In this document: piece after piece, positions 15,001-63,530 of the stretch
Position numbering within the stretch: the first letter of the stretch is position 1
Layout of the letters: every line of letters starts with the position of its first letter
Assembly (NCBI GenBank): GCA_037951105.1
Contig: JBAMJV010001800.1
Location: 62,001 to 126,000, forward strand
Length of the DNA: 64,000 nt
Source: Echinarachnius parma
Lineage: Eukaryota; Echinodermata; Echinoidea; Clypeasteroida; Echinarachniidae
Reading direction: 5' to 3'
Notes under the pieces: generated by a model
The model's input: the letters and a program-made list of their open reading frames with translations, nothing else
What the model was told of the DNA's origin: nothing
The model's database searches: none
Position numbers and translations under genes: made by a program

Positions 15001-18000
15001 GGATCTGCATGTATTGTGTGTACACTGTCCATAAACAGGTGGATCTTTTTTCTTTTCTTTTCTGTCTATAAATGGACTTCGAACACCACTCCCCAGGGAT
15101 GTAAATTTGTCTTTGGCAATTTAAAAACATATTTAGGCGGAACTACATTTGTGCATAATTTGCAAGCTATAATATATACTACATGTATGTAACTAAAAAT
15201 TATTACACTGTATTTTTTTATTTTTTATAGTAGGTCAATATTGTTGACAAAGATGTACACTGTACATGTATCTTATTCTATAGAAATGTACATTTTAACC
15301 CTCTTAAATCTTTTTTCTTGCATATAATTTGATTTATGAAATTTACATTTTTACTCTCTTTAAAGGGGAAGGAACTCCTAGCCTTTTGACTTACTGGATG
15401 TGATGAGAGCATAACTCCTGTCATTTCTAGTCACTTATTTCCTCATGAATATTCCCAATAATGAAAATAATCAATATTTGATGGACCACTGTCGTCTGCT
15501 TTCAATGCCCACAGGAGGCGGCCATTTCTTCAAATTCTCGCGGTGAAATGACGTGTCAGGCGGAGAACACAATAGCGGGTTACGATAATGCTATTGTGTT
15601 CTCCGCCTGCCACGTCATTTCACGGCGAGAAGTTTGAAGAAATGGCCGCCTCCTATGTGCATTGAAAGCAGACGACAGTGGTCCATAAAATATTGATTAT
15701 TTTTGTAATCGGGAATATTCATGAGGAAATAAGTGACTAGCAATGATAGTAGTTATGCTCTCATCACATCCAGTAAGTCAAAAGGCTAGGGGTTCCTTCC
15801 CCTTTAAATGTCCTGGCTTACTGTAAATGTTAATCGTTGCATTATTTAAAAACAAAATTTGTTTTTCTTTAAACAGGAATAAAAGAATTCTCCCTGTACC
15901 GTAAAAAATATGATCATTTTGCAATGTGCAAATATTATTTATTACCAATTTGAATGTTTGCACAAATGACCTTGCACATCTGGCTTCACTTGAATATTGC
16001 ATTTAGGTAATTGTTATAGTCTGCCAGTCTTCAAGAAAGAACCCTGCAGAAAAAATATGTAATTTTGAAATGTGCAAATATTATTTATTAACCAATCGGT
16101 ATGTTTGCACAAATGACATTGCACAGCATCAAGATAGTATTTTGGCAATTTTCTAGTCATTCAATATTTATAGTTTTGGTGGTTAACATTTTACAAGTTC
16201 AAACTTTGTTGCTATTTATACAGGCTAGCAAGGAGAATAGGTCAAAACATTTCATTAAACTTTATATGTTGATAGTCATAACATTTGATTGAAACAAGTG
16301 GTACGTTATTTTTGCAATATGGTACAAATGTTTTTTGGCACAGTACTATACATTTTAAACAGCTATGTACAATCTACCTGCAAGTTTGAAAATTGAGGTC
16401 TTAGAAATTAATGGGGTTATAGCAATTGCTGGAAATTAATTGCTTTCAACCAAATGTCAAAAGTTGCAATGATAATAAAATCCACAGTTATAATGTTTCT
16501 ACTTTATTTATTATTTTTACAGGATTCCAACAAGAACTTTTCATTATTCATTAATGTGAAACTAAACTCATAAATAATATGTGTGGTTTACGGGTACACC
16601 ATGTGAGATGGGTGGATTGGTAAGCCCTGAAAAGGACTATGGTAGTCCTAGAAAGGACTGTTGGTGTAGTTCTGAAAAGAACTGTTGGTATTCTTTCTAG
16701 GAGAGTTCTAAAAAGAACTGTTGGTAGTCCTAGAAAGGACTGTTGGTAGTCCTATAAAGGACTGTTGGGATAGTCCTGAAAAAGACTGTTGGTATTCTTT
16801 CTAGGAGAGTCCTAAAAAGGACAATTGGTAGTCCTAGAAAGAACTGTTGTTAGTCCTAGAAAGGACTGTTGGGATAGTCCTGAAAAGGATAGTTGGTAGT
16901 CCTAGAAAGGACTGTTGATAGTCCTAGAAAGGACTGTTGGTATTGCGAGGAGAGGGTGGATGGTAGGAGGGACTCGACGTTTCGAATAGGTTGACTATCC
17001 GTCGTCAGGAATTATTCTAAACTCATAAAGTTGTACTTTCCATCTTTGTAAAATTAAAGGGAACTTTATCCAGAGAAAATGGCTATTAAAAGCTATCACT
17101 TATCACAAATAAGTGATAAGCAATATTGCTCCTATATGATTTGTGTACGAAATTATGAAATATCTGTAAAATTGGCTCATTTCTATCTTTGCACATTGTT
17201 CAAAAGAAATTAATTTTGGGTAATGCTTGCTATAGTGATCACATACTTATCAACCAGTATTCCAATGAAGATGCATACTTATATGTTGAAGGAAAGAATG
17301 GTGTATTCTTCTTAAACAAAAGTTCAATGATTCACCAATTAATGTCATAACAAACTTTTTTTATTGTTTGATCTTATTTCATTTGACACGTTTCAAAAGG
17401 AAATAATTTCAAGGGAAACTCCCGATATCAATCACAGCGAACTTCAACTGGTATTCCAACAAAGAGGCAAGCGTCGAGGAAATCAGAGGTGTTTCCTTCA
17501 TCTTCAATTAATGAACAATTATTCTAAATAATACATCAATTAAACATTGTTTTCTATTGTTTCATGTCCTTTCTTTGACAGGCTTCAAAAGGAAAGAATT
17601 TCGGGGGAAACTTGCCATAGCCATCACAGCAAACTTCATCAACCGTCATTCCAACGAAGAGGCTTCTGTCGAGGAAATCAGCGGCGTCGCGTTCATCTTC
17701 AACCAGAAGTTCTTCCAAGACCTCCGAGAATCAACTGGCATCGATCTCGAAAACATTGTCTACTACAAAGACGACACTCACTACTTTGTTATGACGGCCA
17801 AGAAACAGAGCTTGCTAGCGAAAGGAGTTATTTGCAAGGTAAATTTTCAAATCTTTTCATTGTAATGGTTTGTTTTGGCTGTCAACAAAATGGATTAGCA
17901 CACTTATTTACAATGGTAACATTTGATAAAGAGATGACGATTGATCTAAATCAATCGTCTCCAAAGATAAAACACACTGCTTTTTGAGGCATTCAAAGAA

Positions 18001-18231
18001 AGCCCTTTTTTCTTTACTTTTATACTTTTTGAGGCATTCAAAGAAAGCCCTTTTTTCTTTACTTTTATACTTTTTCTTTTTAAATGTCTTTTTGTTCTAA
18101 ACAAATCTTTTTGTTCTAAAAAAATGGATGAAAACACTTACCCTATTTGCTGGTGTATTAACCGCACCTTTTTTCAACAAAAAAAAAAGAAAAAAAAAGG
18201 GGTGCGGTTAATACACGACCGTATTAAAGAC

Positions 18232-18265
<34 letters not shown>

Positions 18266-21200
18266 GGGTGCGGTTAATACACCGGAGCGGTTAATACACC
18301 GACAAATACGGTATTAAAAATATAACAAAGTTGGGGATTGATCTGAAAAAAAAAACACCTATATGGTTGCCCACAGCTAGTATGCTCCTCAGGGAGTTGA
18401 GAATGTGTACAAGATAATTGTGCGGGTCTGAACTGTACCAAATGACCAGGGATAATAATAAGCGCTTAGAGGCTGTTCTGCATTAGGCGCTATACAAATA
18501 CAATCTATTATTATTATTATCATACGCACTACTTTGGGATGATTTCCAAGAAGCTTAATTTCCCCTCCCGCCCCCTCGTCCCACCCCCTCGTCCCAGCCC
18601 TCTTCCCCCTTCCTCCCTCCAAGATCTTGGGCTTAAAATAAATGAATTAAACAATAATTGCAGATAAAACACAGGAAGAATATAAACCCCTTCCGCAATT
18701 CAAGTTTGAGTGTCGATATCTCTCTTGTCTCTATATTATCTTCCCGAAATATGGGGCTGTTTCAAGATTGAAATGTTGCAATGCATGTTTTCGTGTGACC
18801 ATTCAAAACACAAACCTCCTAACAAATGAAGTATTCACATTGACAATAACGTTGTATTTTGCAACATTTCGCTTTTGACACGGCTTCATATTCAGGTCTA
18901 CTACTGCACATTCCATAATTACATAAATATTACAAAATGAGGCATCAATGTAAAGGGGAATAAACTGGCTCGTCAATTATATCAAATTCGAGTAGAATCA
19001 TTTCATAACAAAATAGATATCAACGCTCAAACTTGAATTGCGGAACTTTTTGTGAGATGTTTATATTGAGATAGATGCAGACCTTAATCCCTTCCAAGAA
19101 AAAAGAAAAAATGGGAAAGAAACATTTCTAAAAGTATCAGAGCTTCTTACATGTATGTGAAAGTTCAAGGCTTTCTGTTTGAAAAAACAAAACAAAAAAC
19201 TTTCTTATTTTAAAAAGAAGAAGATTTGACGAGCCTTGATACGGGCTCCCATGAGGCGAGGGAAAACCTTTCTTTTAGGTTTTTTTTACATGATATTGAA
19301 AGGAAATGTGACTCAAAGATGTGACATATCTTATCAGCATTAGCGTCATTCAACATGAGCTGTAGAGAACAGTCGATCAACATCATTCAATGTATCAAAG
19401 CCAAAGTTAACAGTTGCTGGAGAATGCACGGGGGCTTGAAAAGGGTGGGTGTGGAACATTTTAAAGGCAATCAACACCCCAAAATAATATTCCAATAATA
19501 AATGGAAGGAAATCCATTCCACCTCAAAAGTTCAGAAAAAAGGTTTCCAGTCAAATTATATGATTGAAAAACTCATCACCATCCCAAAGTACCTGTGTTC
19601 ATGGGTCTGCAGAAGAAGACTATCTATTGTCTAGGACATATGCGGCTTCTGTGGTTGTAATGGTGTCAAACGCGTGTATAGAATGGGCGCTCTCACATAC
19701 GTTTGGCTCATACAGAACCATGAGGCACTGTTGGTTCCGTAAGTGTTGGTAAATTTAAAGGGACTTAGTAACATTGTTCAAATCCTCAAAATCTAATTGG
19801 AATTCTAGCGGTTCCCTCATACCTTCTTGTATTTGTATTAACAATAAAAGCACGGGACCGGTTTTGGTTTTTCACATTTGTATTTACGATTGAAGTGAGT
19901 GCAATGAGTTAGTGAATATCACTTTGCATTTTTGCTCATTACTCGGCCATATAATTTTGACACAACACCCAGTGGACATATCAGATAACAATAATATACA
20001 TTGGGTGATTTCAAGTATGGTGTTTAAGGCTGGTGTTAGTGTTTATTACACACAAACACCAGTTTGATAAACACTAACACCAGCCCTAAACACCATACAA
20101 GTACTTGAAATCACCCAGCGTATCAACCACTCACCACTTTTTGCACATGTCAACAAAGTTACTAGATCCCTTTGAGGCAAATTTAAGAGACTTTGCTACA
20201 AAGAGGTGTGACTAAGGTTGAATTGAAATATTAAAGTTTAAATTGAACATTGTAACATGGATATGGGGAAAACGTCAATGAATTAGGCAAAAAAGCAGAG
20301 CACAGGAATAGAATAAAGTGAATATAGAAAATTACAAGTATTCTCTGTATCAAATCATGGAAAATGGGATAAATGTCACAGAAATAAACAAAATACAGAA
20401 TAAAGGAATGGGAATCAAACATTGATATATTTGCAATATTTGTTTATGTTCTACATTATTCATGAAACATTTCTTAGTATCTGGTGGACACAGTGCAGCT
20501 ACTGCGGCCAGAAATAGTTGAACAACACACCAAATTCTCTATAATGGTTTAGTAATGTCACCATTACCACTATCACCACCATCACCACTTCCTCAATCAT
20601 ATTTGAAATTTGTAATGTTAGTTCATACAGGATATCTTTTGTACATCGTAAGGAACATTTTTTTTCTAGGATGTGGCGGACGCAGTACAGCTGCTACGCC
20701 CCCAAAAGGTCGACCAACAAATGTTGCAAGAGTTTGCCCGAGAGAAACCGATTCCTAATTGTCTCTATTTTTACTTTTTGTTTGCACTTTCACAATTACT
20801 GCTATCACCATCACAATTCCCTCAATCATGTTTAAAACTTGGATATGGCTGACACAGTGCAACTACTACAACCCAAACCAGTAAAAAATGTAAAAAACAT
20901 GAGGGCTCGGGGCAAATTCACCCCTAAAATGCCCAAAAGAGCCCCCGTAAAGCACAAAAATGCAAATCAAATATTGGATTGTTATTTTCATGCAGGCAAG
21001 CTTGAAAAGGGAGCCCCCGAAAAATATATAAACATTTTTTCCCTGACCCAAATGCAATGTTGCAAGAAACCACCAAATTCTCTAATATTTATTGTTGATG
21101 ATGATGAGAATAATTTATATTTATTGTTATGCACTATCAGCACCATCATCATTCCCTCAATCGTATTATCGTTTGTGTTTTTGAAACATTTTCTAGGATG

Positions 21201-22840
21201 TCCCAGACACGATACAGCTGTTGAGTCCCAAAAACGTCGACCAGCACATGCTGCAAGAGTACGGCCGCGAGGCCGCCGACTTCTGCACGAGCTTCCAGCT
21301 TCCCACGCTAGACTACGCCCTCAACCATCACGGTCAGCCGGACGTTGCGATGTTCGATTTCACGTCGATCTTCGCCGCCGAAAACGCAGCCCGGGTGATC
21401 GATCGCAACAAACATAAGCTGCTGATGGCGTTGGTTGGCGACAGCTTACTAGAGGTTTGTGCTATAAATATTGTTTAGAACATTCTCTAGCTGAGAATGT
21501 TGTGTCTTTCAATGTCATAGGAATGCGTTCCAGAATGCTTTTCGATAGTACTCAGTCAAAATAAATGGGCAAAGGTGATGAAATCATTTGGTAAACAGTG
21601 AGCCGCTTTCTATGAAACTTGCAGATAACATTCAGAGTAATCTGACAATGATATTGATATATGACTGAAGTCTCAAGTTGGTACACTTAATGGGTAATCG
21701 CCAAGAATTTGTTCCTGGTAATGCTTAAAGGACAATGAAATCCAGACAAATTGTTGTATGCACTATAAGACACTAAATATAATGAATAGTCTCTGAAAAT
21801 TTGAGCTCAATTGGTCAAGAAATAAGAAAACTATGGCTCTTTGAAAAGAGCCATGTATTTCTTCGAGTGACTCAAATTGGCAACACACTCTGGCAATGTT
21901 GTGGACAACTTCCCATACAGTTTGTACACAAAATTTCAGTTTTGTTCAATTTTCTCAAAATGTATGTTTACCCTTCGTTCAAGTTCAACATATGTTTTGT
22001 AGAATGCTTTTATACATAACATATCATGAGTTGGGGGAATGGAAAAATGTGACTATGAAGAAAACTGTAAAAATGGGAACATTTGTGTACAAAACATATG
22101 GGGAGTTGTCCACACACTTATCAGAGTTCGTTGCCAATTTGAGTTCCCCATAGGAATAAATGGACATCTTCAAAGAGCCGTAGTTTTCTTGTTTCTTACC
22201 CGATTATGCTCTAACTTTCAGAGATTCTTCTTCTTAATCTCTTCAAGACTATGAAAGCAACATTTTGCTTGGGTTTCATTGCCCTTTAAGAATCGTGGGC
22301 TAAAGCAAAGGATAGTGCGCTTAAAGCAATGATCATTGGTTGTTTAATGAAATGAAATTATGCTATATGAAGAAAAAAAACCTTCCCTTTTCTCTCATTT
22401 AGCCCTTCAGGCCACCTGGCTCGGGCTGTACTCGAGCCTTCCTTGGTGCCTTTGACGCAGCAGTGACAATTCATAGCTGTTACTCAAATGTTGTGATACA
22501 AACTGGTGGTTTGGCTAATGTGTTTTCTTTGAGCTATTTGCCCTCATTTTTGTCTTGATTTCTTTTACTATCAGCCCTTCTGGCCGACTGGTTCGGGATG
22601 CGCTCGAGGATTCCTCGGTGCCTTTGACGCAGCATGGATGATCCGAAACTGGTCTTCAGGAGACGTGACCCCGCTGGAGGTACTAGCGGAGCGGGAAGGA
22701 GCATACCGTCTCTTGGCGCAGACTACGCCTGAAAATCTTGGCAAGGTATGACTAGTTATTATCATTAATCAGCTTTAATATCTTCATCATCATCATCATT
22801 ATCATCGTAGTCATTATCGTTACCATCATCAGCAGCAGCA

Positions 22841-22887
<47 letters not shown>

Positions 22888-25800
22888 ATCATCATCATCA
22901 CCACCACCACCACTACCGCTACCACTACCACCAACACCACCACCACCACCACCACCACTACCACTACCACCACCGGCATCACCATAACCATCTCCATCTC
23001 ACCACAAAGGCAGTGGCCCCTCAAGAATGTATGATTATTCCCATTAATTTATTTAATGATGATCACCACCACTATCCTCATCATGATTATTGTCAATATT
23101 TCTCTCTATAGGACTATGAACTGTATGGAATTATCCCCAACTCAAGATACCCACATCTCAACACCAAGGCCGTGCTCCCTCAAGAGGTCATCCATCTCTA
23201 TGACACTCTTGATGAAGACCTCAAGGCGCAGTTTGAGATCCTGGAGAAGAAACCGTCGATCCTGATCAGGCAATGTAAGTTGGATGAAACCTACTTATTT
23301 ATCTTGCCCTTTCACTCTTCATCCTCCTCTCGTTTGCCTCTTCCTTTTTCTTATCTTCCTCTTTCTATTTTCCTCCTCCTCCTCCTCCTCCTCCTCCTCC
23401 TCTTCCACCTTCTTCTCCTCCCCCCCCCCCCTTCCCCTCTTTATCCACCTCGGCTCACATGGCTCGTTACTGGCCCAACACTCGAAGAATCTTTCATAAT
23501 AACCAGAAGAACTTTCTTCCTCCTCCTCCCCCTCCTCCTCCTCCTCCTTCTCCTCCTTCTCCTCCTCCTCCTCCTTTTCCTCCTCTTCCTCCTTTTCCTC
23601 CTCATCCTCCTCTTCCTCCACTTTCCGCTCCTCATCTCGCATAGAGGAATCTTTCATAATGACCAGACTAACTTTGGTGTATGAAGCAACGAAGACGACC
23701 ACACAGGAGTGATTTCCATGGATGCAGGCGGCAACATGAAGAATGTCTTCAATAGGTTCTGTGGTGGTCTCAACCAGTTTGAAAATATGCCCCTCCCCCT
23801 CTTCATCTTCCTCCTCCCCTCCCCTCCCCCTTCTCCCCCTCCCCCTCCCCCTCCCCCTCCTCCTCATCTTCCTCCTCCTCATCTTCCTCCTCCACCTCCC
23901 CTCCTCAACTTCCTCCTCCTCATCTTCCTCCTCCACCTCTTCTCCCCCTCCCCCTCCTCCTCATCTTCCTTCTCCTCCCCTCCTCATCTTCCTCCTCCTC
24001 ATCTTCCTTCTCCTCCTCATCTTCCTCCTCCACCTCCCATCCCCCTTCTCCCCCTCCCCCTCCCCCTCCTCTTCATCTTCCTCCTCATCTTCCTCCTACT
24101 CATCTTCTTCCTCCCTTCCTCATTTTTTCTCCACCTCCCCTTCACCCTCCTCCTTACTGTGGATAGGCAAATATTGAATCAATAGGAATTAAAGCTACAT
24201 TCACCTAACTCTAACCCTAACTCTATTCTTATATTCTAACATTTTAACATTTTAAAACTACATTTTATTCTGCTTGTCCATCATTTTTGAACTCACAGCT
24301 GCAGGTGTGAAACATCGATATAAAAATACTGGATATAGCAACAGCGCCCTCATCATTAAGCCAGCGACAGTGTGAAAAAGTACTCCAAAAGTACTCCAAA
24401 TACAAAGACCATGCTCGCTCGAGTGAATCGATTTACGGAAATGAATAGAAGCACCTTTTGTATTTGGTCACTTAGGTGGACTTTTAGATACTTGCGGCGG
24501 CTTCAACGTCGCTCATTCGGCATTGTTCAGCGTGCTGTATCCAGTGTGTATATATCGATGGTGTGAAAGGACGTAAAATGTTGCTGTGGTGCCAGCGAGC
24601 GACAGAGTACTACCCCAACGTACGGGTCGACAACATGACTCAAAAGATTCAACTTAATTTCTTTAGATGAAAACGTAATTACTGTAAATTTCTTTCTATT
24701 TATATTTGCTTTTCTTTCAAAGTAATTGTTTGATTTTATCCCACAGCTTCGGTCGTGAAGGGAAGTAAGCTGTTGCTGTGGTGCCAGCGAGTGACAGAGT
24801 ACTACCCCAACGTACGGGTCGACAACATGACTTCTAGTTGGAAGAACGGGCTGGCGCTATGTGCAATCATCCACAGATACAGGCCGGATCTCCTGTAAGT
24901 AACAAACCTGAAAGGAATCTAGAATCCACTAACATTGCTTTACTAAAACTTGTAATAAGATGTAAAGTAGACAATTTTAGGGGAACGAATCATAGACGAC
25001 GGTAGATCAGACTTCAATCTTTCGATATGAGCCATGTACTTGGCACAAGAAGGACAAAATACATAATTTTCAAGCAAATTAATGAGGCTTTCCTGGGAAC
25101 CGGGAAAACACTGCTCCCATCTCTGAACGCTTCTCACAGGAACCGGGAAAACACTGCTCCCATCTCTGAACACTTCTCAAGGGAACCGGGAAAACACTGC
25201 TCCCATCTCTGAACACTTCTCAAGGGAACCGGGAAAACACTGCTCCCATCTCTGAACACTTCTCATGGGAACCGGGAAAACACTGCTCCCATCTCTGAAC
25301 ACTTCTCAAGGGAACCGGGAAAACACTGCTCCCATCTCTGAACACTTCTCACGGGAACTGGGAAAACACTGCTCCCATCTCTGAACACTTCTCAAGGGAA
25401 CCGGGAAAACACTGCTCCCATCTCTGAACACTTCTCATGGGAACCGGGAAAACACTGCTCCCAACTCTGAACACTTCTCATGGGAACCGGGAAAACACTG
25501 CTCCCATCTCTGAACACGTCTCACGGGAACCGCGAAACTACGTAGTAAAGGGTTTAAGTGATATAGTGGCCACCTGTCCATAGCAACCAACCTGGCTACA
25601 GTGGCCACCAAAAGGGATCCCCTGCAGAGATAAGGGATGTTATGGAATCTGTCTATAGAGGCCACATGTCTATACAGAGGCAACTTTTCTTTTTTCCCTT
25701 ACATAGTCACTATACACAAGTTTGGCTGTAATATGTTATGGAACCTGTATATACCTGTCTTCAACTTTTCTTGTTGGTCACTATACACAGGTTTTACTTG

Positions 25801-28800
25801 ACCCGTTCTTTAATTCCTTGATTAGATTCATCTGATTGTGAAATTGGTATAACAAAGAGTGATATTCTCACACCAGCAACATACTATTTTTTACTTGACA
25901 TTACCAACATATAAAATGTTCTTCCTCAAAAGTTGTACTTAGTCTTTTCTTAAAGGGATCTAGTAACTTTGTTGACATGTGCATAAAGTGATTAAATGGT
26001 TGATAAAATGTGTATCTATGTGCTCTGATATATCAACTTAGTACTGAGTAAACATTTCACGTTAAAGGGGACCACCAGGCAAAGGACAACACATTATTAT
26101 ATGTTTTGGTACCGTTTTGTGATATCAAAGAGATACCCAACATTTTGCAAAGGGTTGTGTAATTCATAATCAAAGCAATTAATTTCCACCACTTACGGAA
26201 CCACGGATATCTCGTGGTTCCACATGGGCCAGGCATTTGCGAGTGCGCCAATGCAATTCACGCGTACGTCAATAGAATCCCGGATGATTCGTTCGCTCTG
26301 CATAGAGCGCCGCTGGCTCTGCTCGCATAATAGTCTGCGCATTCAGACCGCATGGCTGAGAATGGTGATGTGTTTTCCAATTATATATTTTTTCTGAAAA
26401 CATATTTTTGTGAACTTATTGAAGGGATGGAATACTAAAGATGTTACCTTTCTATAAAAAGATTATTATTTTTGGGTGGTGGTACCCTTTAAATGGATTT
26501 TATATAGCCAAGTAGTGAGTAAAAATGCAGAGTGATATTCTTTAATTCATTGCACTGACTTTGTACAAGAGTTATAATGTTCCAGTGGATAATTTAAAAT
26601 CTGAACACTTCAATCATAAATATCTTTGCAACGAAAGGGAAATTTGAACTGTTATAATGCTCCAGTGGATAATAAAAAAATCTGAACACTTCAATCATAA
26701 ATATCTTTATAACAAAAGGGAAATTTGAAAAAAAAAAAACCTGTTCCATATACAACAAGGTATGAGAGAACCACTATAGTTCTAAGTAAGTTTTGTGGAT
26801 TTGGACAATGTTAATATACATGTATCCCTTTATTGTATGCAGAAACTATAATGCCCTGAGAGCGGAGAACGTCACGGAGAACAACCAGCGTGCTTTCGAC
26901 ATCGCCGAACGGGAGCTCGGCATCCCGCCTGCGATGACTGCCAAAGAAATGGCCACGATAACGTGCCCGGACAAACTGACGATGGTCGCGTACCTTCTGC
27001 GCTTCTACGACCTCTTCAAAGACGAAGTGCCACCCTCAACCAAGAGTAAGTTGATTTTAAAGGGAAATGCCAGTAGTGGGAAACGCCCCACCCCCTAAAA
27101 GTGAAATGTACGCTCTCATTACCAACCATGTGAAAGAATATAGTTTTACTAATATGGGATTATACAAATTTGGCCAAGAAACCGCCTACTAATTGATATA
27201 TTTGCAAAATTATAAATTGATCCGTTGCGGATAGATATCGTCAACGCGGAATCCAAATACCCTACGTGCATTATTGATTACGTGCGTTCGTTATACGGGC
27301 TTGTCCCCAGCTTGTCGATATCTCCAGTCCAGCGCTAGCGGCGCGGACAGGTGCGAACCGGCGGTGGATTTATCATTTCACGGGCGGGTATTGGATTTCT
27401 TCTGATATTTCTGCATTTAACGCATCGTTAGGTTCGGATTTTACCACACAAGCCCTTCTTAGATACTTATTCAACAATATTGATCATTTATAAATGTGTT
27501 CTGTAACTTTCCCAAAACTGTTATTCATCTTCAAGGGGACCACCAGTAAAAAACAACACAGAATTATATGTTTTGGTATCGTTGTGTGATATTAAAGGGG
27601 ACCACCAGTCAAAGAACAACACAGAATTATATGTTTTGGTATCCTTGTGTGATATTAAATAGAGGCCATCACTTTGCAAAGGGGTGTGTAATTAATAAAC
27701 AATACAATTAATAACCGCCACTTACGGAACCAACATGGCCTCATGGTTCTGTATGCGCCAACGTCTGCAAGTTCGCCACACGTATGTTACACGTATGTAT
27801 GGAAACAGAATCATGGACATTTATCCTGAACAAAAGGTAGTCTCTGTCTGCAGACCCATGAACCCAGGCTTTAGTACTGTGATGCGTTTTCCAATTATAT
27901 CATTTGTCTAGAAACCTATTTTGTCGCTGGTTCAAATCCATCTTTGATCAACTTTTATTTATTTCTTTGTTGTCTTTCCCTTTGAGCAGAAGATGAAACA
28001 CATGACATTGGCACGCCCATGGAGGCCCGCCAGCAAGTCATCCATTCAAAAGTCGTCATTCCTGTCACAGCTCACTGCGCGGGTCCGCCGAAAGTCACTG
28101 GTTCGAATCCCTCATTAATTAAGTTTTCTTTCTTTGTTCCCTTTCTCTTTGAGCAGAAGACGAATCACATGACATTGGCACACCAATTGAGGTGAGCGCC
28201 GCCCCCGCCAGCAAGTCTTCCATTCCAAAGTCGTCATTCCTGTCGCGGCTCACGAATCGAGTCCGCCGAAAGTCGCACGAGAAGCACGAGAAGCGGGACA
28301 AGGAGAACGGGGAGAAAGCGGCGGCGGTCGGGTCCAAGCGAAAGCACAAACACAAAGAGCCAGTCGTGGTACGTGAAGATAATACAGTTATACCTGCTCT
28401 CGCGAGTACCTGTGTATAAGGACCCCTCGTCTATAAAGATCACCTGTCCAAAAGGCCACTAAATTTGTCTCCCAATGAAGCATTTTGCATGTAAATGAAC
28501 CCGCCTATAAATCAGCATGGACAAACAAAGAATTAGAATGATAATTTTGATTACAAATAATAAATACAAATAATAATGATGGTACAAATTCTAAAGCGCC
28601 TAATATGATACAGTATTGTCTCGAAAATGCCAGCCCACAAATATTGTAAGCACCATCTCCACTCCGTGGGGGAGTATACTATCCAAGTCACTCATGGGCA
28701 TTGAGAAGATTAACACTCAGAGTGCCAGGGATTTGTATTAAAGCTCTATGGCATTTGTGTGTATTGTGTGGTGCAAAAATGCGAGCTTGGCACTCAAGGA

Positions 28801-31800
28801 GTTGACACTTTAGTATTCAAGTCACATGGTAACCTCATTTTTGTTGGTGCACTCTTCTCTCTGGTGGCCTTCTGGCAACCTTAAAGGGACCTCGTAACTT
28901 TGTTGACATGTGCAAAAAGTGATGAGTGGTTGATACAATGTATATTGTTGTTATCTGATATTTTCCACTGGGTGTTGTCTGAAAATTTCAAGTTATTATG
29001 GCCGAGTAATGAGCAAAAATGCAAAGTGATATTCACTAACTCATTGCACTCACTTTGTACACGGTTTCGACGATCCATTGGATAATTTAACATCTGAAAA
29101 CGTAAATATCTTTTTAACGAAAAGGAAATTTGAAACACCGAAACCTATCCCATGATTTTATTGTTAATACGAATACAACAAGGTATGAGGGAACCGCTAG
29201 AATTCCAATTGGATTTTGAGGATTTGGACAATGTTACTATTAAGTTCCTTAATGTATGATTACAAGATATAAATGAAAGAAGAAAAAAAGGGATATTAAT
29301 CAATCAACTTTTTAATCTCTTCACCAGGTTGACGACGTCCGGGAGAAGCGCAAACTGATCCACGAAGAAAAGATGAAGAACGCCAACGGGGAGCTGAGCC
29401 TCAAGGACAAAAACGAATTGAACGTCGGCGTACGGGGCCAGAACAAAGTCAGCGGGCTGGCTGAACAGCTCCAGGCGAACCTGCGCTCAAACTATGGCAT
29501 GGATACACCTGACGCCAGTGGCGCGCCTGGGAGACCTGTGAGTTTTGCTTACTTGTCTGTTTGTGTGTTTGTTTGTTTGTTTGTTTGTTTGTTTGTTTGT
29601 TTGTTTTTGTTCATAGTGGATTTGTTAACCGTGCTAGGCATGGCCTCCCACCACATCTCTTCGGCGAACATGAAAACGATGACTACGATTGCGACAATGG
29701 TGCCAATGAAGGAGGATGATGGTGACAACAAGGAGCATGGTGATGATGATGATGATGAGGATTTTAATGGTACTGATGGTGATGATGCAATTGATGATGA
29801 TGATAATGAAGATCTTGATGATGATCATAGTGGTTATGATGACGGTGACGGCGCCGGCGCTGATGACGATGATCACGATAATGAAGATGATGATGATGAC
29901 GATCACCACATTTATTATGATGATGGTGATAATAATGATGGTGATGAAGATGAAGATTATGATGGTGATGATGGATGTAATCACACTTATGCTATATTTT
30001 GAATCCCCCTCTAGAAACCAAAACCACTGAGTAAGGCTGGCAACGTGCCACAGAGCCAGCTGTGCGTGTTCTGCAGCAAGCGTGTCTACATAATAGAGCA
30101 GTTTTGATGATGATGATGACGAGGATAATGATTGATGTTATAGTGTTACAACTATATTGGGATACATTTTCGTTCATTTATCAGAAACCCAAACCACTGA
30201 GTGAGGCGGGCAACGTGCCACAGAGCCAGCTGTGCGTGTTCTGCAGCAAGCTTATCTACGTAATGTAGCAGATTTGATGATGATGATGATGATGATGATA
30301 ATCAAGATAATGGTAATGATAATGATGGATGTAATAATTATACAATTAATGTGAATAAAACAAAATTGTTCATCTTCTACCAGAAACCCAAACCACTGAG
30401 TGAGGCGGGCAACGTGCCGCAGAGCCAGCTGTGCTTGTTCTGCAGCAAGCGTGTCTACGTGATGGAGAGGCTAAGCGCGGAGAGCATGTTCTTCCACCGA
30501 GACTGCTTCAAGTGCGAGGATTGCGACATCACGCTGAGGATCGGCAACTACGCGTACCTGCCTGACCCAGACGGCAAGAGTAGAGGTAAAAGCAATATGT
30601 CAGAAAATGATGTGAATATTTTGTTGGGTGAGAGTGGTAAGGGCGTAAAGTCAGTTTTGGGCTAAATTGAGTTGTGAATCAATCTTGTAGATCAGAGCAT
30701 TCTCTATGTTAAACCGTTTTCAGATAATAGTTGTTTCTAGTTGATGAAATATTATCAAAAATTAAAAAAAAACATTCAGTTTCTACAGAGCTCCCAAACT
30801 TTCATTCAACATGATAAACTCCAAAGTACAAAAAGTGACTTTAATAGCACTCTTCTCTTTCTCAACTGACGATTTGCTAATACATAAATTACTTGCAGCC
30901 CAGCGGATTTCAAAGAAATTTTTAGAATTAATGGAGATAATTGACACCAATAAAACAAAGTAACCAAAGTAAATACATATACATGTACATCTTCATCTTA
31001 AAGGGACTTAGTAACATTGTCCAAATCCTCAAAACAAAATTTTAATTCTAGCGGTTCCCTTATACCTTGTTGTATTCGTATTAACAATAAAATCATGGGA
31101 CGGGTTTCGGTTTTTCAAATTTCCCTTTTGTTACAAAGATATGTATGATTGAAGTATTCAGATAAGAAAAACTCTGGGCTAGTTTTTCTTCCGTGTACAA
31201 AGTGAGTGCAGTGAGTTACTGAATATCACTTTGCATTTTCGCTCATTACTTGGCCATACAATGTCCATTTGACTTGAAATTTTCACACAATACCCTGTGG
31301 TCATATGAGATAACAACAATATACATTGCATCAACCATTCATCACTTTTTGCACATGTCAACAAAGTTACTAGATCCCTTTAACATGGAATAGTGCTAAT
31401 GTTTAGGCTTGATAGGATAAAAAACCCACTCTCACATGGTGCAACCGCAAACCACGCGTATTAAAAAACCCATTCTTTATTATCACTTTTGAAATTTCTA
31501 ATTTGTAAATTACATGCAGCCCAGCAGATTTCAAAGTAATTTTTTAGATTTAATGGAGATAATTGACACCAATAAAAAAAAAAGTAACCAAAGTAAATAC
31601 ATATATTAAATCTTCATGAACTACTACTACCTATCATGAAATAATGCTAATATTTAGGCTTGATGGTATATAAAAAAAAAAAACAGTGTTTACTATCACT
31701 ATTGAAATTTAAAATCTTATTTTCTCCTCTCCAGGACGCTTTTTGTGTAGGGCCCACTTCGCCGAAACCAAGCTTGCGGCCAGGAAACGTGCATATGTGG

Positions 31801-33805: not shown

Positions 33806-33838
<33 letters not shown>

Positions 33839-33942
33839 TATGGTGGTGATGATGACAATTTGGTAATATATGGCACGTTTCATGACTGAAGTCTACACTA
33901 TACGTTTCATTGGATCACTATCAATTTGATGATGATGTTGAC

Positions 33943-33977
<35 letters not shown>

Positions 33978-45900: not shown

Positions 45901-48739
45901 CGTTGCGGACCTCGGGGTGACCACGCCTGAGGCGGCCGCATCGGAACAACTCCCGAGGCTCAGTAAGTTGGCCTTTAGATTTTGTTAATTAGGTAGAGAT
46001 ACAATACATGTATATCAAGTTTGTTTGATGCCATTTGAAATATATGAATGTTGATTGGAGTAGAGATACAATATATACCAAGTTTGTTTGATGACGTTGA
46101 AGAAATTTGAATGTCACAAACAAGTTCCTTGATTAGAATAATTCCTAAAACTAATAGTTGACCCTTCATTTCAGATGAAAATGAGAATCAAAGTCGATAT
46201 GTATTGATACATTTTTTTCCCCAGTTGATCATTTATTAATAATTTTTATAAATGCTGGTCAATGTGAAACTACTTTAATTTCTGTTATTTTCTCTCATGT
46301 ATACCTTTAGGAACGGATGATTTTGCATAAGTTGATATTTAATTACAGTTTAAAGGGTAAATAATGAAGTTAATTTGGCAAGCTTTATGGAAATGAATGA
46401 ATAAGTTGCATGTGCATGAGCATTATGATATCTTGATTATATTTAGTCTTCTTTCCAGCCCCTTTGATATATCTTACCAATAATTGCTGTAATTTGACGA
46501 GATCATAATTTTCAACATGGTTTCTAAACTTTCTATCCACATTTCCAGTGGTTAGTGAATAGAATAATTATACATGCTTTTTTAGAAAATAATACTGAAA
46601 TGTTTTTATTGAACTCCAAATAAAACCACTGGCTTAAGCAAAAACAAAAAAAAGGACTTGGAAGAAGACTATTATAGCGAATCAAACGAAAACCTTTTAT
46701 TTTGTTTAAAGCAGATTAAGTTTGCATTGGAAAAATGTGCATTTTGAATTTGAAGGTCATTCAAATTTAATGTTTTGATAACTTTGTTTTAAATTTCATG
46801 TTTTTAACTTTTGTTTTTATTTGTTTCTCTCCCTACCCCATTCTCTCTCTAAAATGATCAAATTTCCAATGAAAATCATTCCTTGCCCCTGTCTTTTCAC
46901 ATTCATTTTTATTGTAATTCATTTTCATTTTTTTTTTCAATCATCCCCCCTTTCAAATTTTGCATAATTTTCCCTCCTTTTCATCCCCATTGTCTCATTG
47001 TCCCTATCATTTCATCTATTATCATTTCATCTATTATCATTTCATATTGATATGATCCATTCTCTTTGTTGCCCATTGTTTTTTGCATCGTTATTCATGT
47101 TATCTTCTACTATCTTCTCTCATTTTTGAAAATTTTCCCCATTCTTTCAATCCAATCATCTCCAATTGTTTAATGATATCCTCGTATAAATGATTTTTCT
47201 TCCATTCATATGGAAACCCATCTCATTCCCATTCCATAATCTGTGATACCCTATTCCAAACCTCTTTCACAATATAAATGTTCCCTTGCTTTAATCCTTC
47301 CTCTTCCTCTGTATTAACCCTACCCCCTCATCTCGTACCCATCCACCCCCCCCCCCCCCAAAAAAAAAAACCAACACACAATCTTAACCCCAAACAGTCA
47401 AGAAGCTGAGCGTGGATGCCAGTCTGATCGGCGGCTTCGACGATTTCGGCTCGACGACGGAGGAAGAGGAGGAGGGGCTGTCGTCGTCAAGGCAACGGGA
47501 CGAGGAGGTTAAGAGTTCCCAGGAGCGGCTTGAACCCCGGTCCTCACCGGCGATGTCCGGCTCGCCCCGCCACAAGGCGAAGTCCCCCCGCCGGATGTGG
47601 GGCAAGCGATTCAAGGTACGTACACAAGCAAGCAAACAAATAAATAGGTAGACAAACAAACAAATAAGCATTAAACAAATTAAAAAACAAAACAAATAAT
47701 TAAACCAATAAGTAAACTAACAAGTAAATTAACTAAAAAGTAAGCAAATTAACAAACTAAGAAACAAGTAAACAAGCAAGCTAGCAAGTAAAAACAAAAA
47801 CAAATAAACATGCACATTATGCATGTAATGGTTCAATGAATTGTCTTTTCATGCAGTTTTATTAGGAGTCTCATTGAGTACTTAGTGATCATTTATAATT
47901 TTGTCATTAAAAGAAACTATGAACTCAAATGAACTTTGTTTGATCACAAATCATAGATCAAATGCAACTTTCATTTAATTGTAATTCTTTATGTAACAGA
48001 CCCATTAGCTGATAGTTATTATAATGACCTAATCAAACATTTTGTGAAATGTTTGCCTAATTCTTACTATCCACCCCTTTTCATCACGCTTCTTCATCTC
48101 TTAATCAATAAATTTCTTTTTCAGATTTAAAATTCCTGTAATTTTCCTTCTTTGCATATTAATCTACATGTAGATGAGCTTCTGTATAATCTAGATTAGT
48201 TTATGATATCCAAAGTTGTCTATTTCCTGAAACTGTTTGATTCTTGTTCTTGGTGCTAATACACCGTACAGTGTGCATAAAACATGTAATTGATAAATTA
48301 TGTGAATGTATGAATATTTATCTATCACTATTTCAAATGCACTTCATTCATTCCTTCCTCCTTCCACCGTGTGAACTTGGTAAACAGAAGTTAAGATCAT
48401 TGAAAAAACTCCGGAAGGTAAAAAGAAAATGTTATGTGGAAGTTAGACCCTGTTAACGTCCAAGTGGCTGTTTTCATTTTGTTATATTTAAATTTGATTT
48501 CCATTCCCAGGGCTTGTTGTATAACCGTTCCGTTCCGTCTATAGATTCCTAATTTTTATTTATCTGGTTTAGGTCTTATTGTATACATGTATGACGTTCT
48601 GTCTTTGTGCATTTTTTCTTCTTCTCCTTCTTCTTGGTTGGCGTCGTCTTCTTCCTTTTCTTCTTCTTCTTCTTCTCCGTTTTCGTCGTCTTCTTCTTCG
48701 TTATCGTCATCTTCTGCTTCTTTTTCTTCTCCTTCTTTG

Positions 48740-48770
<31 letters not shown>

Positions 48771-51700: not shown

Positions 51701-54700
51701 AGATGTTACACATTTTTTTTTATGAAGCATTGTATGGCATAAAAATGTGCAATTATATTCAATTAATTTTGCAATCTAATTTTGTCCATCTAATTATTGC
51801 AAAAGTCTCAGGCAATGATTATGTTTTGCTACTTTCATATTTGAATACATATTTCTCCATCAATATTTTTATTTCAATACAAAGTTATGCAATTAAATTT
51901 GTTGAATTCTTGCCCCGTTCCTGACACTGAACATTTTTGTCCATCTAATTATTGCAAAAGTCTCAGGCAATGATTATGTTTTGCTACTTTCATATTTGAA
52001 TACATATTTCTCCATCAATATTTGATTTTAATACAAAGTTATGCAATTAAATTTGTTGAATTCTTGCCCTGTTTCCTGACACTGAAAATGATTCGGACAA
52101 AAACCTGCCTTCAATTCGATACATACAGGAGGTAGTGTATTTTGCTTTAAATTACTTTCCCCCTTTTTTTAATATCTGCCATGCACCAATTTTTATTTCC
52201 AATCTCATTTGATTGGGCTGCATTTGAATTACAATGCTACTCCTTTCATGCACCAAGTTTATTTGCAATTTTGTTTGATTCGGGTTGCATTTAAATTGTG
52301 TTGGCATTTAACTGCCTTTGTTGCACCTATTATTAAAGTTCCTTTGCAATTAGGTTTATTTTTGGTTGCATTTTACTTCTGTTGGCAGTTCCCCCCCTCT
52401 ACTCACTCATTTTTATTTGCAATTTGGTTTGGTTTTGGTTGCATTTAGTTCTGTTGGCATTTTGCCTCTGTATATGCACTAAGTTAATTTGCAATTTGGT
52501 TTAATTTTGGTTGCGTTTGATTTTGTTGGCATTTACCTCCCCTTGATGCACTAGCCAAGTCCAGTTTATACTTTGGTTTAATTTTGGTCACATCAAGTTT
52601 TGTTTTTAGTAGTTAGATACATATATAGTGTTTCATTTTAATTACATTTACTAAACCTAAGTTGATAGTTACAATTCTTCTTTTCTTTTGAATAGCTGTG
52701 CACCAAGTTTAATTTGATTTTGGTCTGATTTAAATTGGTTGCACTGGCATTCTGCTGGCATTTTTCTTTAAGTTGTTATTTACCATTTTCTCCTCTTTGT
52801 GCACCATGTTTAATCTAAACCTTATTTTCTTTCAGTTTGTTTTGGATTTATTTTCTTTATTAATAAGCATTATTTTGTTTTAGTTGGGTGTACAGCATTA
52901 AAATATTGGTACAAATGTTTATTTTACAGTGCCCTGTATCTGCACATGTATACAGCTAGGTTTATTTATAGATTTATTTTATCAGTTGCAGTACTTTAAC
53001 TTATCTGATTTTTAGCTCATCCGGCCCGAAGGGCCCGATGAGCTTATGCCATGGCGTTGCGTCCGGCGTCCGTCCGTCCGTCCGTCCTTCCGTCCTTCCG
53101 TCCGTCCGTCCTTCCGTCCGTCCGTCCGTCCGTCCGTCCGTCCGTCCGTCCACAATTTTCAAAATGCTTCTTCTTCGTTATTTTTCAACCGATTTTGATT
53201 CTGATTGTTTCATAAGATAGGGCTAGGAGGGGGATTTAAAACTTCTACACAGAATCGTGAAATTCATTATATATGCTAATTTATGCAAATTTATTCGAAA
53301 TCACAAAAAATGCTTCTTCTCCTTCATTTCTTGACCGATTTTGATTTGGTTTGCTTTATCTGGTAGAGCTAACTTTGGTACACTAAACTTCTACACAGAA
53401 TTTTGAAATTTTTCTCCATTAATTAATTATGGTAATTTATGCAAATTTATTCCAAAAATCACAAAAAATGCTTCTTCTCCTTCATTTCTCGACCGATTTT
53501 GATTTGGTTTGCTTTATCTGGTAGAGCTAACTTTGGTACACTAAACTTCTACACAGAATTTTGAAATTTTTCTCCATTAATTAATTATGGTAATTTATGC
53601 AAATTTATTCCAAAAATCACAAAAAATGCTTCTTCTCCTTCATTTCTCGACCGATTTTGATTTGGTTTGCTTTATCTGGTAGAGCTAACTTTGGTACACT
53701 AAACTTCTACACAGAATTTTGAAATTTTTCTCCATTAATTAATTATGGTAATTTATGCAAATTTATTCCAAAAATCACAAAAAATGCTTCTTCTCCTTCA
53801 TTTCTCGACCGATTTTGATTTGGTTTGCCTTATCTGGTAGAGCTAGGTTTCATAAGATAGGGCTAAGAGGGGGATTTCAAACTTCTATACAGATTCATGA
53901 AATTCATTATCTATGGTAATTTATGCAAATTATTCGAAATCACAAAAAATGCTTCTTCTTCATTTCTCGACCGATTTTGATTTGGTTTGCTTTATCTGGT
54001 AGAGCTAACTTTGGTACACTAAACTGCTACACAGAATTGTGAAATTTTTCTCCATTCATTAATTATGGTAAATTTTTTATTTTTTTATTTTTTTTATTTT
54101 TTTTAATTTAATTTTTATTTATTTTTCTATTTTTATTTTTATTTTTTTATTTTTTTTTTAATTTTTTGTTTGTTTGTTTGTTTGTTTTGTTTGTTTTGTT
54201 TTTTATTTTATTTATTTTTATTTTTATTTTGATTTTTTAAATTTATTTATTTTTTTTTTTTTTTTTTCCCATGTCCCTTCCAGGGCATCAAATTTTTATT
54301 TTTTGACCAGTTGAAAAGTGTACCACATGAAATTTGCGATATTTGATGTTGCGAGATGGCGGATGAGCGCTACGTCATTGACGTTCTGTTTTTTTTTTTT
54401 CTTTTACGTTGAAACAGGGCTCCACACTCACCTTTTTAACTCTTGGCCCATTCGGGGCCAGAAAAATAATTTGTTTCAACCTTTAGTGGCATGAAAAGTA
54501 ATTCCTGCCCCCCCCCCCCCCCCCCCCCTCCTCAAATTATCTTCACTTTTATAATGTAAACTATTGAAAATCTCGCCCTCTAGATATTGATTAAAACTAC
54601 AATTGCAGATACAAAATGTAGTTACTCATTCGATTGTTGTCAGTTTGAAAATCGAGTTACCTCCTTAGGCCATTATAAAAATGACTTTCATTAAATGTTT

Positions 54701-57700: not shown

Positions 57701-60700
57701 CCTCACCAGCATCTACCAATCTTGTATTCTTGCAATGTGTCGGATATGATTAGAATGTGCATGATTGTATGTTTGACGTTTATAAAAAACTTGGGAGGCG
57801 TAATGTATTTCCTTTCACTAGCTTAGCTAGCACGAGCGTGAATAGGGGTTTTATTGGAAGTACCACCAGTATAAGAGCATTTTGTAGCTTAGTGGTTTAG
57901 AGCACTGGGTTCATATTTATTAAAGCCTGCTAGCTTAATAGTTTCATTTTGGATGTACTAAAGATATGAGCGTTTAGTTGCTAACTTGGGGTAAGTTAAT
58001 AATGGCACTGTTGTGGACTAGGGAAACGGTTTTATTGCTCACTAAACCGCGTCATCTGAAATGGACTTAGCATGGAACTAAGCTAGCGGGGTTTTATGAA
58101 TATGGGCCCTGGTCTAGCAATCTGGAGGTTTTGGGGTTTGATTCCTGGGGGGTGTTTCACAAAGATTCTACGTTGAACTTAATTCTAAGTAGGACCTACA
58201 TTGTAACTATTATGGAAAGCCATTTGTAGCCTTGGTATAAAACATATTCAAAAGCAAGAATGGAAGTATTTTAGACTTTCATACATTTTTCATCAAGAAC
58301 ATGAAATCTCCTTGATAATAGAAAATATAATTATGATTTGAATCAACAATTTCTCAAAGAAACGAATGGCTTTCCATAATTGTTAAGTCCAACTCAGAGC
58401 TAAGTTCAACTTGGGATCTTTGTGAAACACCCCCCTGGTGGAGCCCAATTTACTTTGCTAATTTTTGTTACCAATTAATCAAAGTATGTGATTGCAGCTC
58501 CTGTTACCTACATCTTGTACATGATTGTGAAGTGTCTCGGGGGAAGGCCTGGTGCAGTAATTTTGTTAAATCAGAATAAACGCTTTACTAATTTAAGTCT
58601 GGTTTGTCTACTAATCAAAAAGTGTGTTATGATCTGCATGATTTGATGCTATTTTTATGTGTTTTTTTGTATATAAAATGCAGTGTTATTTTGCATAGGG
58701 TTACTGGTTGATTTACATGTACTAAGTGATACATTAACTTTGTCAAATTCAACCAAAAAGTCATTTCACATTTCTTTTGTACCATCTTGCTTTCCTTATG
58801 GTAACAAAATGGTAACAAAAGAATGAAATGGGTTTGAATTTTCCAAATGTCTCCTTAAAGGGATAGTTGAGTTTTGGTATAGAGGGCGCTACACAAAATA
58901 ATTTGTTGTGAGATAATGTAAAACTGAGTGTCAAATTTGAAAGAGCATACAATTTTAATGACAGAATAAACTTTATTTGATCAAAATCGGTTCAGAAATG
59001 GCTGAAATATCCATAAACTCTTTTCAAAAATTTACAAAAGAGGTTTTTAAATAGTTGTTGAATATCTCTCTATCTAATCACTATTTCAACAAAACATCAC
59101 ATGCACAATATTTTATTTTAAATGGTTGAACCCGATGACTGTTTAGAGAGCACCCTCATGAGTTTTAACGGCTCTTTTTGAATGATAACATGCTTTTTAC
59201 TTAGTCATTTGTAATTTTGTATTCCTTTTCGAGCATGGTGGAGTTATTACTATTAGTTTGTTATGTATTGGTGCAGGTTTTGGTTACTAAAATTCAGTTT
59301 GACCTAAACTGTACTCTCTTTACCAGAACTCAACTATCCCTTTAATTATGGAGATATATTATATGATTGGACAAAAAGCGTTATTATAGGAACTAGGAAC
59401 GCTTTTGCGATTGTAGTCAAAATGAGTGTGCTCTATGTAATAAAATCTGACATACATTTATACTTTTTATCACTAGGTACCCCATGTTCTTTTTCTGTGA
59501 AACTATCACACATCATTCAGACAAATATTGCAATATTGTATTGGTGTACATTATGATGGAAGTCCCAAGTATCACATTTTGAAAAATCTTGTGAAGTTTA
59601 ATAATGGATCACTTAAATCATTCAAATGAATAGACCTATCCAATAGTCGTGCATGTACATGTATACTGTTTATCACAGAATGCCATTGAGGGATGAATTC
59701 ACTCAACAAATGTAGAGAGATTATTGTTGGTAGTATTAAATGGTACAATTTACATGTATATGCATGTACAGTATATCAAAAATTACCCAGAGTCACCCCC
59801 ACATTTAGAATTCACCATTAAAGGCCTGGTCACATATCACCGGATAGCATTAAACGGATGCCCGACAGAGAGTATAATATTGTATCCGTTCGTATGCATT
59901 TCTTGTCCGTTCCTTGTCTGGCGATGTACATTGTTCTATCTGGCGGAATGTTTTGTGCATGAAGAAATGGAGACGGCTTTCACCACCAGATTATTTGATT
60001 TTGCAAATTGTCTATTCGTCGGGCATCCGTTTACGCTAGATCCAGTGATATGTGACTGGGCCTTTAGGTAGACATTCCTAGACAGATCATTTAGGAAATT
60101 CTGTACATTATAGTGTAACACCTAGTGTGTACTGTGGAAAAAAAGGTAGGACTAACTTGCTGTTTTTTCAGGTGTTAAATCACATTTATTAATTGTGTGT
60201 GTGTGTGTTTGCCATGCTAGCCTAGGATATTTTGTTGGAGACAGAATGTATACACAGTCATAAAACATGTTAGCATTAAGCCCTCTGCACACAGAGCCGA
60301 CACGACCCGATCCGACTGGTTTTCTGTCGGTTTAGCTCAGTATACGTTGCCTCAGGACTCCTGTCTTGCCGGTCAAGAGCCAGTCGGAGATCATTCGAGG
60401 CCGCTTCAACATGTTGAATCGGCTCCGACTGAGCGAAACCGACTCTAGCCTGACTGAAAACCAGTCGGGTCGAGTCAGCTCTGTGTGCGGAGGGCTTAAT
60501 GCATGTGTACACAGAGTGATAATCATTTCATTAAAAAAAATGTATAATGCTCTTGCAGTGGAATTTTTGAAGAGTAGAGTGACGTGAAATGCATGGATAC
60601 ACAAGCCTGGATTGACCTCTTTTTTTTTTTTTTTTAATGGATAAAACATTTGTTTTATTTAAGGAAAAAAATAACTTTTAAAGCAATACTCCACATTAGT

Positions 60701-62910: not shown

Positions 62911-63077
62911 GTGAGTAAAACAAAATTGAAATCATTTCATAAAAATATGGTTTAGATTCAACCACATACAAAATACATTGGAAAATCTTGGCTTCAACCA
63001 CCCATGAATATGAGATATTACATTCATTCATTCATTCATTCATTCATTTTTCATTCCAACGGAAGTATAAAAAACAC

Positions 63078-63151
63078 ACATTTTATGAGATGATCGAAGT
63101 CGTGGAGCAAAGAGATTCCCTGGTTACCTTTCTTGAAGAAGAAAGACTCAA
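63078..63151 (+). pseudogene. Ghost of MICAL exon 22, copy 1, intact donor
   Basis: Frame reads YEMIEVVEQRDSLVTFLEEE then RLK with the donor gtgagt intact. About ten changes, half synonymous. The 5' part and acceptor are absent. The downstream intron (aaaatatggtttag, (cattcatt)n) is repeated as well. Confidence 0.88.
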
Positions 63152-63298
63152 GTGAGTTAAAAAAATAAATAAATAGAAATCACATGTCATAAAAATATGG
63201 TTTAGCTTACTAACCACATACATGTATGAATAAGAGATATTACATTCATGCATTCATTCATTCATTTTTCATTTCCAACAAAAGTATAAACAGTACAA

Positions 63299-63370
63299 AT
63301 TTGTTGATGAGATGTTAGAAGTCGTGGAGCAAAGAGATGCCCCGGTCGCCTTCCTTGAAGAAGGACTCGT
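63299..63370 (+). pseudogene. Ghost of MICAL exon 22, copy 2, damaged donor
   Basis: Reads [19 protein letters not shown], then an in-frame 3-base loss and a changed end; the donor gtgagt is now gtgaat. Spacing to copy 1 is about 217 bp. Confidence 0.85.
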
Positions 63371-63477
63371 GTGAATAAAAACAAACACAGAACCCTCATA
63401 GATACATGTATTCATCCACAGGTCTATGAAAATTAAACTTTATATACACTCGCCCGTTCATTTTTCATTCCAAAGAA

Positions 63478-63530
63478 GGAAAACTTTAAAAAATGTATTT
63501 TCGATAAGATGCTGGAACTTGAGAAAGAAT
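63478..63530 (+). pseudogene. Very faint ghost of MICAL exon 22, copy 3
   Basis: ttcgataagatgctggaac resembles gatgaaatgttggaag of the exon and sits at the expected phase of the tandem unit, after the same ttcatttttcattcca lead. No further coding similarity; weak. Confidence 0.45.

Follow-up and report, generated by a model that had tools for sequence, protein, structure and literature searches.

Why should one exon after another of a single gene have decayed fragments of itself in the adjoining intron, and is it the gene, or the DNA at large, that has the habit? The question is raised by a MICAL3-type gene on the plus strand of the 64,000-nucleotide stretch of Echinarachnius parma DNA analysed here (the window), which is positions 62001-126000 of a 263,674-bp contig, C1799, in an assembly of 1.2 Gb and 14,790 contigs. 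The mitochondrial DNA agrees with an echinoderm source: COX1, on contig C14600, reads open through 521 codons with the echinoderm code as well as with codes 4, 5, 13 and 24, has under it Asn for an AAA codon at a position where Asn is conserved, and precedes tRNA-Arg, ND4L and COX2, a gene order that points to echinoderms. The reading developed below, to which we give a probability of about 0.85, is that these fragments, 'ghosts' for short, are the exon-touching members of a genome-wide set of short head-to-tail tandem duplications, probably made by the repair of staggered breaks.

A MICAL gene and its half-exon copies

Exons were placed by their splice sites, with agreeing phases, and the spliced model has 19 of them (e2-e17 and e20-e22 in the numbering of the original prediction), which read in frame through 2244 residues with 0 stops. 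Since e17 joins e20 in phase, exons 18 and 19 may not exist. e1 straddles the window start and e0 is 6.5 kb before it; neither a first nor a last coding exon was found in the gene model. What makes the product a MICAL is the ordered presence, on a single strand, of the flavin domain (Pfam Rossman_Mical, 2e-64), CH (1.1e-22), LIM (1.6e-5) and bMERB (1.1e-39), with MICAL3 6ici as its best PDB match (E 1.2e-187). A giant 3.6-kb exon, e16 (window 42324-45962), has a very acidic start, and the masked self-comparison found no tandem pairs in it.

To find ghosts, every exon was taken together with 60 bp of its flanks and compared with the 4 kb on either side, a DNA match at E <= 1e-5 being termed firm. 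Partial copies had been predicted beside nine exons, at least 17 in all. Direct intron copies are indeed present beside all nine, and 17 are counted in the window, 14 of them firm and three weaker: two at e3, three at e4, one each at e5, e7 and e9, two at e11, one at e20 and three each at e21 and e22. A single copy was found for e0 and likewise for e1, both of them beyond the window. Parent exons and ghosts, in window coordinates, are as follows.

17582..17838, plus strand: parent exon e3 (gene model)
17325..17507, plus strand: e3 ghost, intron flank and exon bases 1-121, shift ~193, stop, acceptor lost
17171..17274, plus strand: e3 second ghost, exon bases 1-82, shift ~386, stop, acceptor lost
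21197..21454, plus strand: parent exon e4 (gene model)
20662..20744, plus strand: e4 ghost, exon bases 1-75, acceptor kept, shift 527
20463..20529, plus strand: e4 weak ghost, exon bases 1-52, shift 719 (protein match, E 0.005)
20806..20883, plus strand: e4 weak ghost, 22 bp of intron (DNA) and the first 14 residues, shift 335-355 (tblastn, E 0.012)
22575..22745, plus strand: parent exon e5 (gene model)
22401..22462, plus strand: e5 ghost, exon bases 1-60, shift 172
24747..24894, plus strand: parent exon e7, CH domain (gene model, Pfam)
24560..24640, plus strand: e7 ghost, exon bases 5-86, 93% identical, shift ~192
28157..28368, plus strand: parent exon e9 (gene model)
27923..28096, plus strand: e9 ghost, 58 bp of intron and exon bases 1-118, shift 167-171
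30384..30585, plus strand: parent exon e11, LIM domain (gene model, Pfam)
30172..30268, plus strand: e11 ghost, exon bases 1-84, acceptor kept, then a stop, shift ~199
30013..30098, plus strand: e11 second ghost, exon bases 1-84, shift ~369
61007..61214, plus strand: parent exon e20, bMERB domain (gene model, Pfam)
61267..61440, plus strand: e20 ghost, exon bases 82-208 and intron, shift 179
61530..61703, plus strand: parent exon e21, bMERB domain (gene model, Pfam)
61836..61965, plus strand: e21 ghost, exon bases 83-174, donor GT and intron, shift 224
62022..62144, plus strand: e21 second ghost, 186 bp beyond the first
62208..62359, plus strand: e21 third ghost, 186 bp beyond the second
62796..62910, plus strand: parent exon e22, bMERB domain (gene model, Pfam)
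63085..63222, plus strand: e22 ghost, exon bases 49-115, donor GT and intron, shift 241
63306..63385, plus strand: e22 second ghost, exon bases 48-115, donor GT, shift 463
63506..63560, plus strand: e22 third, weak ghost (repeat-unit alignment only; missed by the exon search)

The e4 ghost at shift 719 has a DNA score of 24 against 22 for the best shuffle, and both weak e4 copies have a protein match near the exon start, with a spacing that fits ~180 bp. Within 4 kb of the exons there was no inverted match to exon sequence at E <= 1e-5; the single inverted match (E 1e-6) is in the intron flank of e8, and the remaining direct matches at E <= 1e-5 are to the intron flanks of e8, e12 and e22 or to the acidic low-complexity start of e16.

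The geometry is simple. Ghosts lying upstream (e0, e1, e3, e4, e5, e7, e9 and e11) consist of the 5' part of the exon, 60-121 nt of it in the firm copies, and those lying downstream (e20-e22) of its 3' part, 67-127 nt, continuing into the intron. Parent exons are whole at every ghosted exon, and all 17 copies fall short of a full exon. In 10 of the 11 ghosted exons the shift from the exon to its first copy is 167-241 bp; at e4 the copies are at 335-355, 527 and 719 bp, ~180 bp apart. Each ghost fits a tandem duplication with one break in the exon and the other in the intron, and a duplication of this kind must leave 5' parts upstream and 3' parts downstream. To call them failed exon duplications, as was done originally, is thus inexact with 0 of 17 whole, although duplications they are, across one exon edge.

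Their origin as genomic tandem duplications was well judged. Direct and adjoining, they combine part of an exon with intron, as partial tandem exon duplications do: 10 of the 14 firm window copies run at least 7 bp beyond the exon edge into the intron, the e5 copy and both e11 copies have 1-5 bp of intron and the e7 copy aligns within the exon only. A search of the whole genome with the e2-e9 protein gave 21 matches, nine on the MICAL contig (seven exons and two ghosts) and 12 on other contigs, the latter to the CH part. Processed retro-copies are ruled out, intron being copied and the protein matches on other contigs being to the CH part only.

Two further regularities were considered for the MICAL exons. 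The ghosted 5' exons have their copies upstream in 8 of 8 cases and the ghosted 3' exons downstream in 3 of 3; this split is possibly due to chance, the control exons introduced below being mixed. A general bias to the 5' side, eight MICAL exons against three, was rejected, but only once the controls had given three against four (five with the borderline L036). A clustering of breaks 60-127 nt inside the MICAL exons, judged on the firm copies, was set aside as weak and subject to detection limits; the estimate for it, about 0.02, is rough, made by hand and post hoc.

Blocks of similar length within and beyond the gene

Local self-comparison of 176 kb of the contig gave 238 direct and 38 inverted pairs at E <= 1e-5, as against none direct and one inverted in a first-order Markov resample of the stretch, so that the repeats exceed chance. 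Direct tandem pairs with a shift of up to 1500 bp account for 18.5% of the bases and inverted ones for 3.1%. For unit length the sample was 244 kb, namely the contig stretch and 20 other loci, with short-period repeats masked before tandem clusters were called. It has 101 clusters in 90 sequence families, and after 18 of the 101, belonging to seven shared repeat families, had been dropped there were 83 unrelated loci, a density near one recognisable unrelated event for every 3 kb sampled.

A process that keeps copying blocks of about 200 bp had been proposed, and the unit lengths bear this out. Among the 83 loci 36 have units of 150-199 bp, 44 of 140-215 bp and 10 of more than 250 bp; the mode is 174 bp (bootstrap 160-185), or 164 bp (149-181) when the loci labelled as touching exons are left aside. 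A log-uniform distribution over 50-1400 bp, a null of convenience that embodies no mutation model, predicts 12.9% in the 140-215 bp range where 44 of 83 are seen (P about 3e-18). The 16 loci labelled as exon-touching, a list in which e4 (shift 527), L027 and L062 go unlabelled and L036 is counted in, have units of 150-241 bp. At 18 of the 83 loci, e1, e9 and e20 included, the homology is as long as the shift (ratio 0.90-1.15); at 24 of the 83 it is below 0.6 of the shift, where a spacer and decay look the same, and strict adjacency therefore holds for some loci only. Three or more copies are present at 16 of the 83. Blocks most often of 140-240 bp have, then, been duplicated adjacent to themselves and in the same orientation, in exons, in introns and in other DNA.

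What makes them? The head-to-tail direct arrangement (238 pairs against 38, with full-length homology at 18 of 83 loci) is that to be looked for if double-strand breaks with staggered ends, from nicks on opposite strands, were filled in and joined, and Vaughn and Bennetzen are said to have traced small tandem duplications to staggered breaks in 2014. We infer that end-joining repair of such breaks is the best-supported mechanism; the spacing of the nicks would then set the length of the block.

A length of 174 bp is near that of the DNA of one nucleosome, and also near that of the nucleosome-paced pieces of the lagging strand. The first likeness invites a chromatin-gauged version of staggered-break repair, in which nicks about one nucleosome apart would be filled in and joined genome-wide, marking a third to a half of exons; the nicked places might be the linkers flanking a nucleosome, or replication intermediates of that length might be joined. 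The nucleosome link to block size is speculative and we think this version, taken whole, rather improbable. The second likeness bears on the alternative that best survives, which has the same genome-wide background arise through replication without any staggered break, by misjoined or re-primed lagging-strand pieces, slippage or unequal exchange. Arrays of equal units, such as that of e21 (186 and 186 bp), would fit unequal exchange after a first event, and the mode fits the lagging-strand pieces; yet the association with simple repeats is absent, and the literature on small tandem duplications, in the portions available of PMC8355091 and PMC5730883, favours breaks with overhangs. On balance an origin in replication is doubtful, though well worth keeping in mind, and staggered-break repair is preferred.

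Duplication driven by microsatellites was considered separately and rejected: of 61 tandem clusters of the contig, called after the masking of short-period repeats, 28 are within 50 bp of a simple repeat where 30.2 are expected, and the corresponding figures for GAT repeats are 3 and 2.5, which is to say no association.

The window has repeats of other kinds as well. A 43-bp minisatellite of ten copies, 96% identical, is at 25095-25537, and a 158-bp unit present five times at 53161-54071, with (CGTC)n at 53067-53151 just before it, is possibly an array internal to a mobile element. One repeat occurs twice inside MICAL introns, in inverted orientation (37478-38053 and 58855-59345), the copies being ~21 kb apart and 91-96% alike. 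A palindromic element of ~570 bp at 21725-22290, its strands 71-72% alike, has other copies that are 92-98% identical among the 40 scored of 5078 candidates; its family is young and MITE-like and masks other DNA matches.

Exons of MICAL and exons elsewhere

Is MICAL, then, exceptional? With e16 (3.6 kb and no tandem bases) left out, 11 of 20 MICAL exons touch a tandem pair, against 5.4 +/- 2.0 random non-exonic intervals of equal length (P = 0.006), 5.1 +/- 1.9 when the intervals are drawn inside the introns of the gene (P = 0.004) and 5.4 +/- 2.1 under circular shift (P = 0.014). With the 17 window copies, these figures are what could be said for a hotspot, a gene-specific excess of duplication at exon edges.

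The comparison with other genes says otherwise. The controls, 13 CH-domain and seven tyrosine-phosphatase exons, were picked blind to ghosts and with haplotigs counted once (the duplicates L002, L034, L046, L051, L055/L056 and L063 being left out); a control ghost is a direct copy at E <= 1e-5 that takes in 30 bp or more of the domain match. Seven of the 20 have one (L001, L027, L030, L035, L050, L061 and L062), L036, whose copy overlaps the domain match by 15 bp, is borderline, L003 and L033 fall short of the threshold, and no direct copy was found in the flanks of the remaining 10. Eleven of 20 against seven of 20 gives a Fisher P of 0.34, and against eight of 20 a P of 0.53. The flank searched was 0.6 kb for the phosphatase exons and up to 2.5 kb for the CH exons (less for L034, L003 and others) as against 4 kb for MICAL, so the controls may be undercounted. 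In all seven the ghost obeys the rule of sides, 5' part upstream and 3' part downstream. The flanks of a mobile element (L018-L026), left uncounted, have direct pairs in seven of nine, some clearly arrays. Tandem pairs cover 14.0% of exon bases, 17.2% of MICAL introns and 19.6% of the contig sequence outside the gene. Further, MICAL was chosen for its ghosts in the first place. A hotspot is accordingly very improbable, and the suggestion that the gene stands out for its serial copies largely fails; the ghosts look like a sample of a genome-wide duplication habit, with MICAL close to ordinary.

It had been allowed at the outset that such a background would undo the special standing of the gene, and to a large extent it does; yet exons are touched about twice as often as random intervals, and of all the results this twofold excess speaks most strongly against a background and nothing more. 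We would account for it by what selection holds. Where a block ends within an exon on one side and within intron on the other, the exon is left whole with a half-exon copy on the side of that intron. The copy misses one splice side, and if splicing still picks the whole exon the change would be nearly neutral and could be retained. The copy would decay while selection holds the parent, and exon-touching duplications should stay recognisable for longer; the twofold excess over random intervals may thus be put down to pairs with one selected member decaying more slowly.

The decay itself is graded, in keeping with what had been noticed earlier, stops, lost acceptors and frameshifts all being seen in the exon-copy alignments. 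Copies diverge from their exons by about 7-33%; stops or frameshifts are present in those of e0, e1, e3 and e11, AG is kept at each of the two e11 copies, at two of those of e4 and at that of e1, and GT at all three e21 copies and two of those of e22. Despite these kept splice sites, the copies have practically no prospect of being functional alternative or decoy exons, given their stops and frameshifts and that none of the 17 has both exon ends, or the two splice sites and open frame of a mutually exclusive or cassette exon.

An assembly artefact of collapsed or misjoined repeats can be put aside with much the same assurance, for although MICAL is on a single contig, its copies are ~7-33% off their exons and control ghosts recur in three haplotig pairs. 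The assembly holds uncollapsed haplotigs (C3459/C3781, C4036/C6179 and C4246/C1058, for example) in which substitutions amount to 0.4-4% where the sequences align and large insertions set the haplotypes apart. C4246/C1058 and C6179/C4036 have ghosts in common, as do C3459/C3781 in one case, where a 387-bp insertion splits the ghost in one haplotype. These three pairs are 96-98% identical, and since the ghosts are common to both members they are not assembly artefacts at the control loci. No second MICAL haplotig is among the matches listed, and so for the MICAL copies a single assembly is the source. In six haplotig pairs (~13 kb aligned) there is no duplication restricted to one haplotype save a 12-bp near-match: among insertions of at least 12 bp that one matched its flank at 0.75 and the others at 0.47 or less. 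Ongoing activity therefore lacks support.

Ghosts as a possible record, and their relatives

While the gene-specific claim is close to ordinary, the block size is the part worth pursuing, and its narrow range would allow a possible link between duplication and chromatin to be put to the test. If the whole genome had a background as dense as that of the 244 kb, half-exon ghosts would be a ready fossil record: a ghost is datable against its parent because selection holds the parent exon, and ghosts could yield the frequency, size and place of tandem duplications and tell which of them selection removes. Annotators of such genomes should beware of false exons from ghosts. In open-licence literature, represented mostly by listings and the beginnings of abstracts, we found no gene described as having so many half-exon copies, no mode of ~174 bp or sharp mode of any kind for two-copy tandem duplications, and no genome with ghosts at a third to a half of the exons sampled.

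Exon duplications of the partial and the intronic kind have been described before (PMC12343006), and genes with partial, inter-boundary or intronic events significantly outnumber those with full-exon events, the latter being ~4-7% of vertebrate genes. The likeness to that class is in part-exon copies within an intron of the same gene; the unlikeness is in the share of sampled exons affected here, about a third to a half, the direct orientation, the nearness to the exon and the narrow unit range, a contrast that is descriptive. Tandem duplication of whole exons affects ~10% of animal genes and may lead to mutually exclusive exons (Letunic et al. 2002 in PMC9013439). It shares with the ghosts a local tandem origin and similar copies beside exons, but its exons are whole where 0 of 17 are so here. 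Simple repeats are reported to bound duplications in the sea urchin SpTrf clusters (PMC8634487), in contrast to the lack of any such edge association here.

Closer in size are the repair-mediated proximal duplicates of vertebrates (Pace et al. 2009, PMC2671141), with a mean of 162 bp and a median of 147 bp. They too are short and near their source, and a few of their donors overlap exon edges. Copies within 50 bp of the source, the tandem cases, were excluded from that set, in which the mean distance is 1.2 kb; here, by contrast, many copies are adjacent and most direct. As to a spacer of more than 50 bp, 18 of 83 loci, those with well-kept homology, are adjacent, and at the 24 of 83 with homology below 0.6 of the shift a spacer and decay would look alike. 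Closest in form are tandem duplications reported for mouse and human cells, where Pol alpha-primase fills in the complementary 3' overhangs of a break and cNHEJ joins the ends (PMC8355091, PMC5730883); older work cited in these papers infers nicks on opposite strands. Human insertions in PMC8355091 are under 100 bp whereas the mode here is 174 bp, with a repair step that we infer, but in being short blocks, direct and head-to-tail, the duplications of which the MICAL ghosts are a part are like those of staggered breaks.
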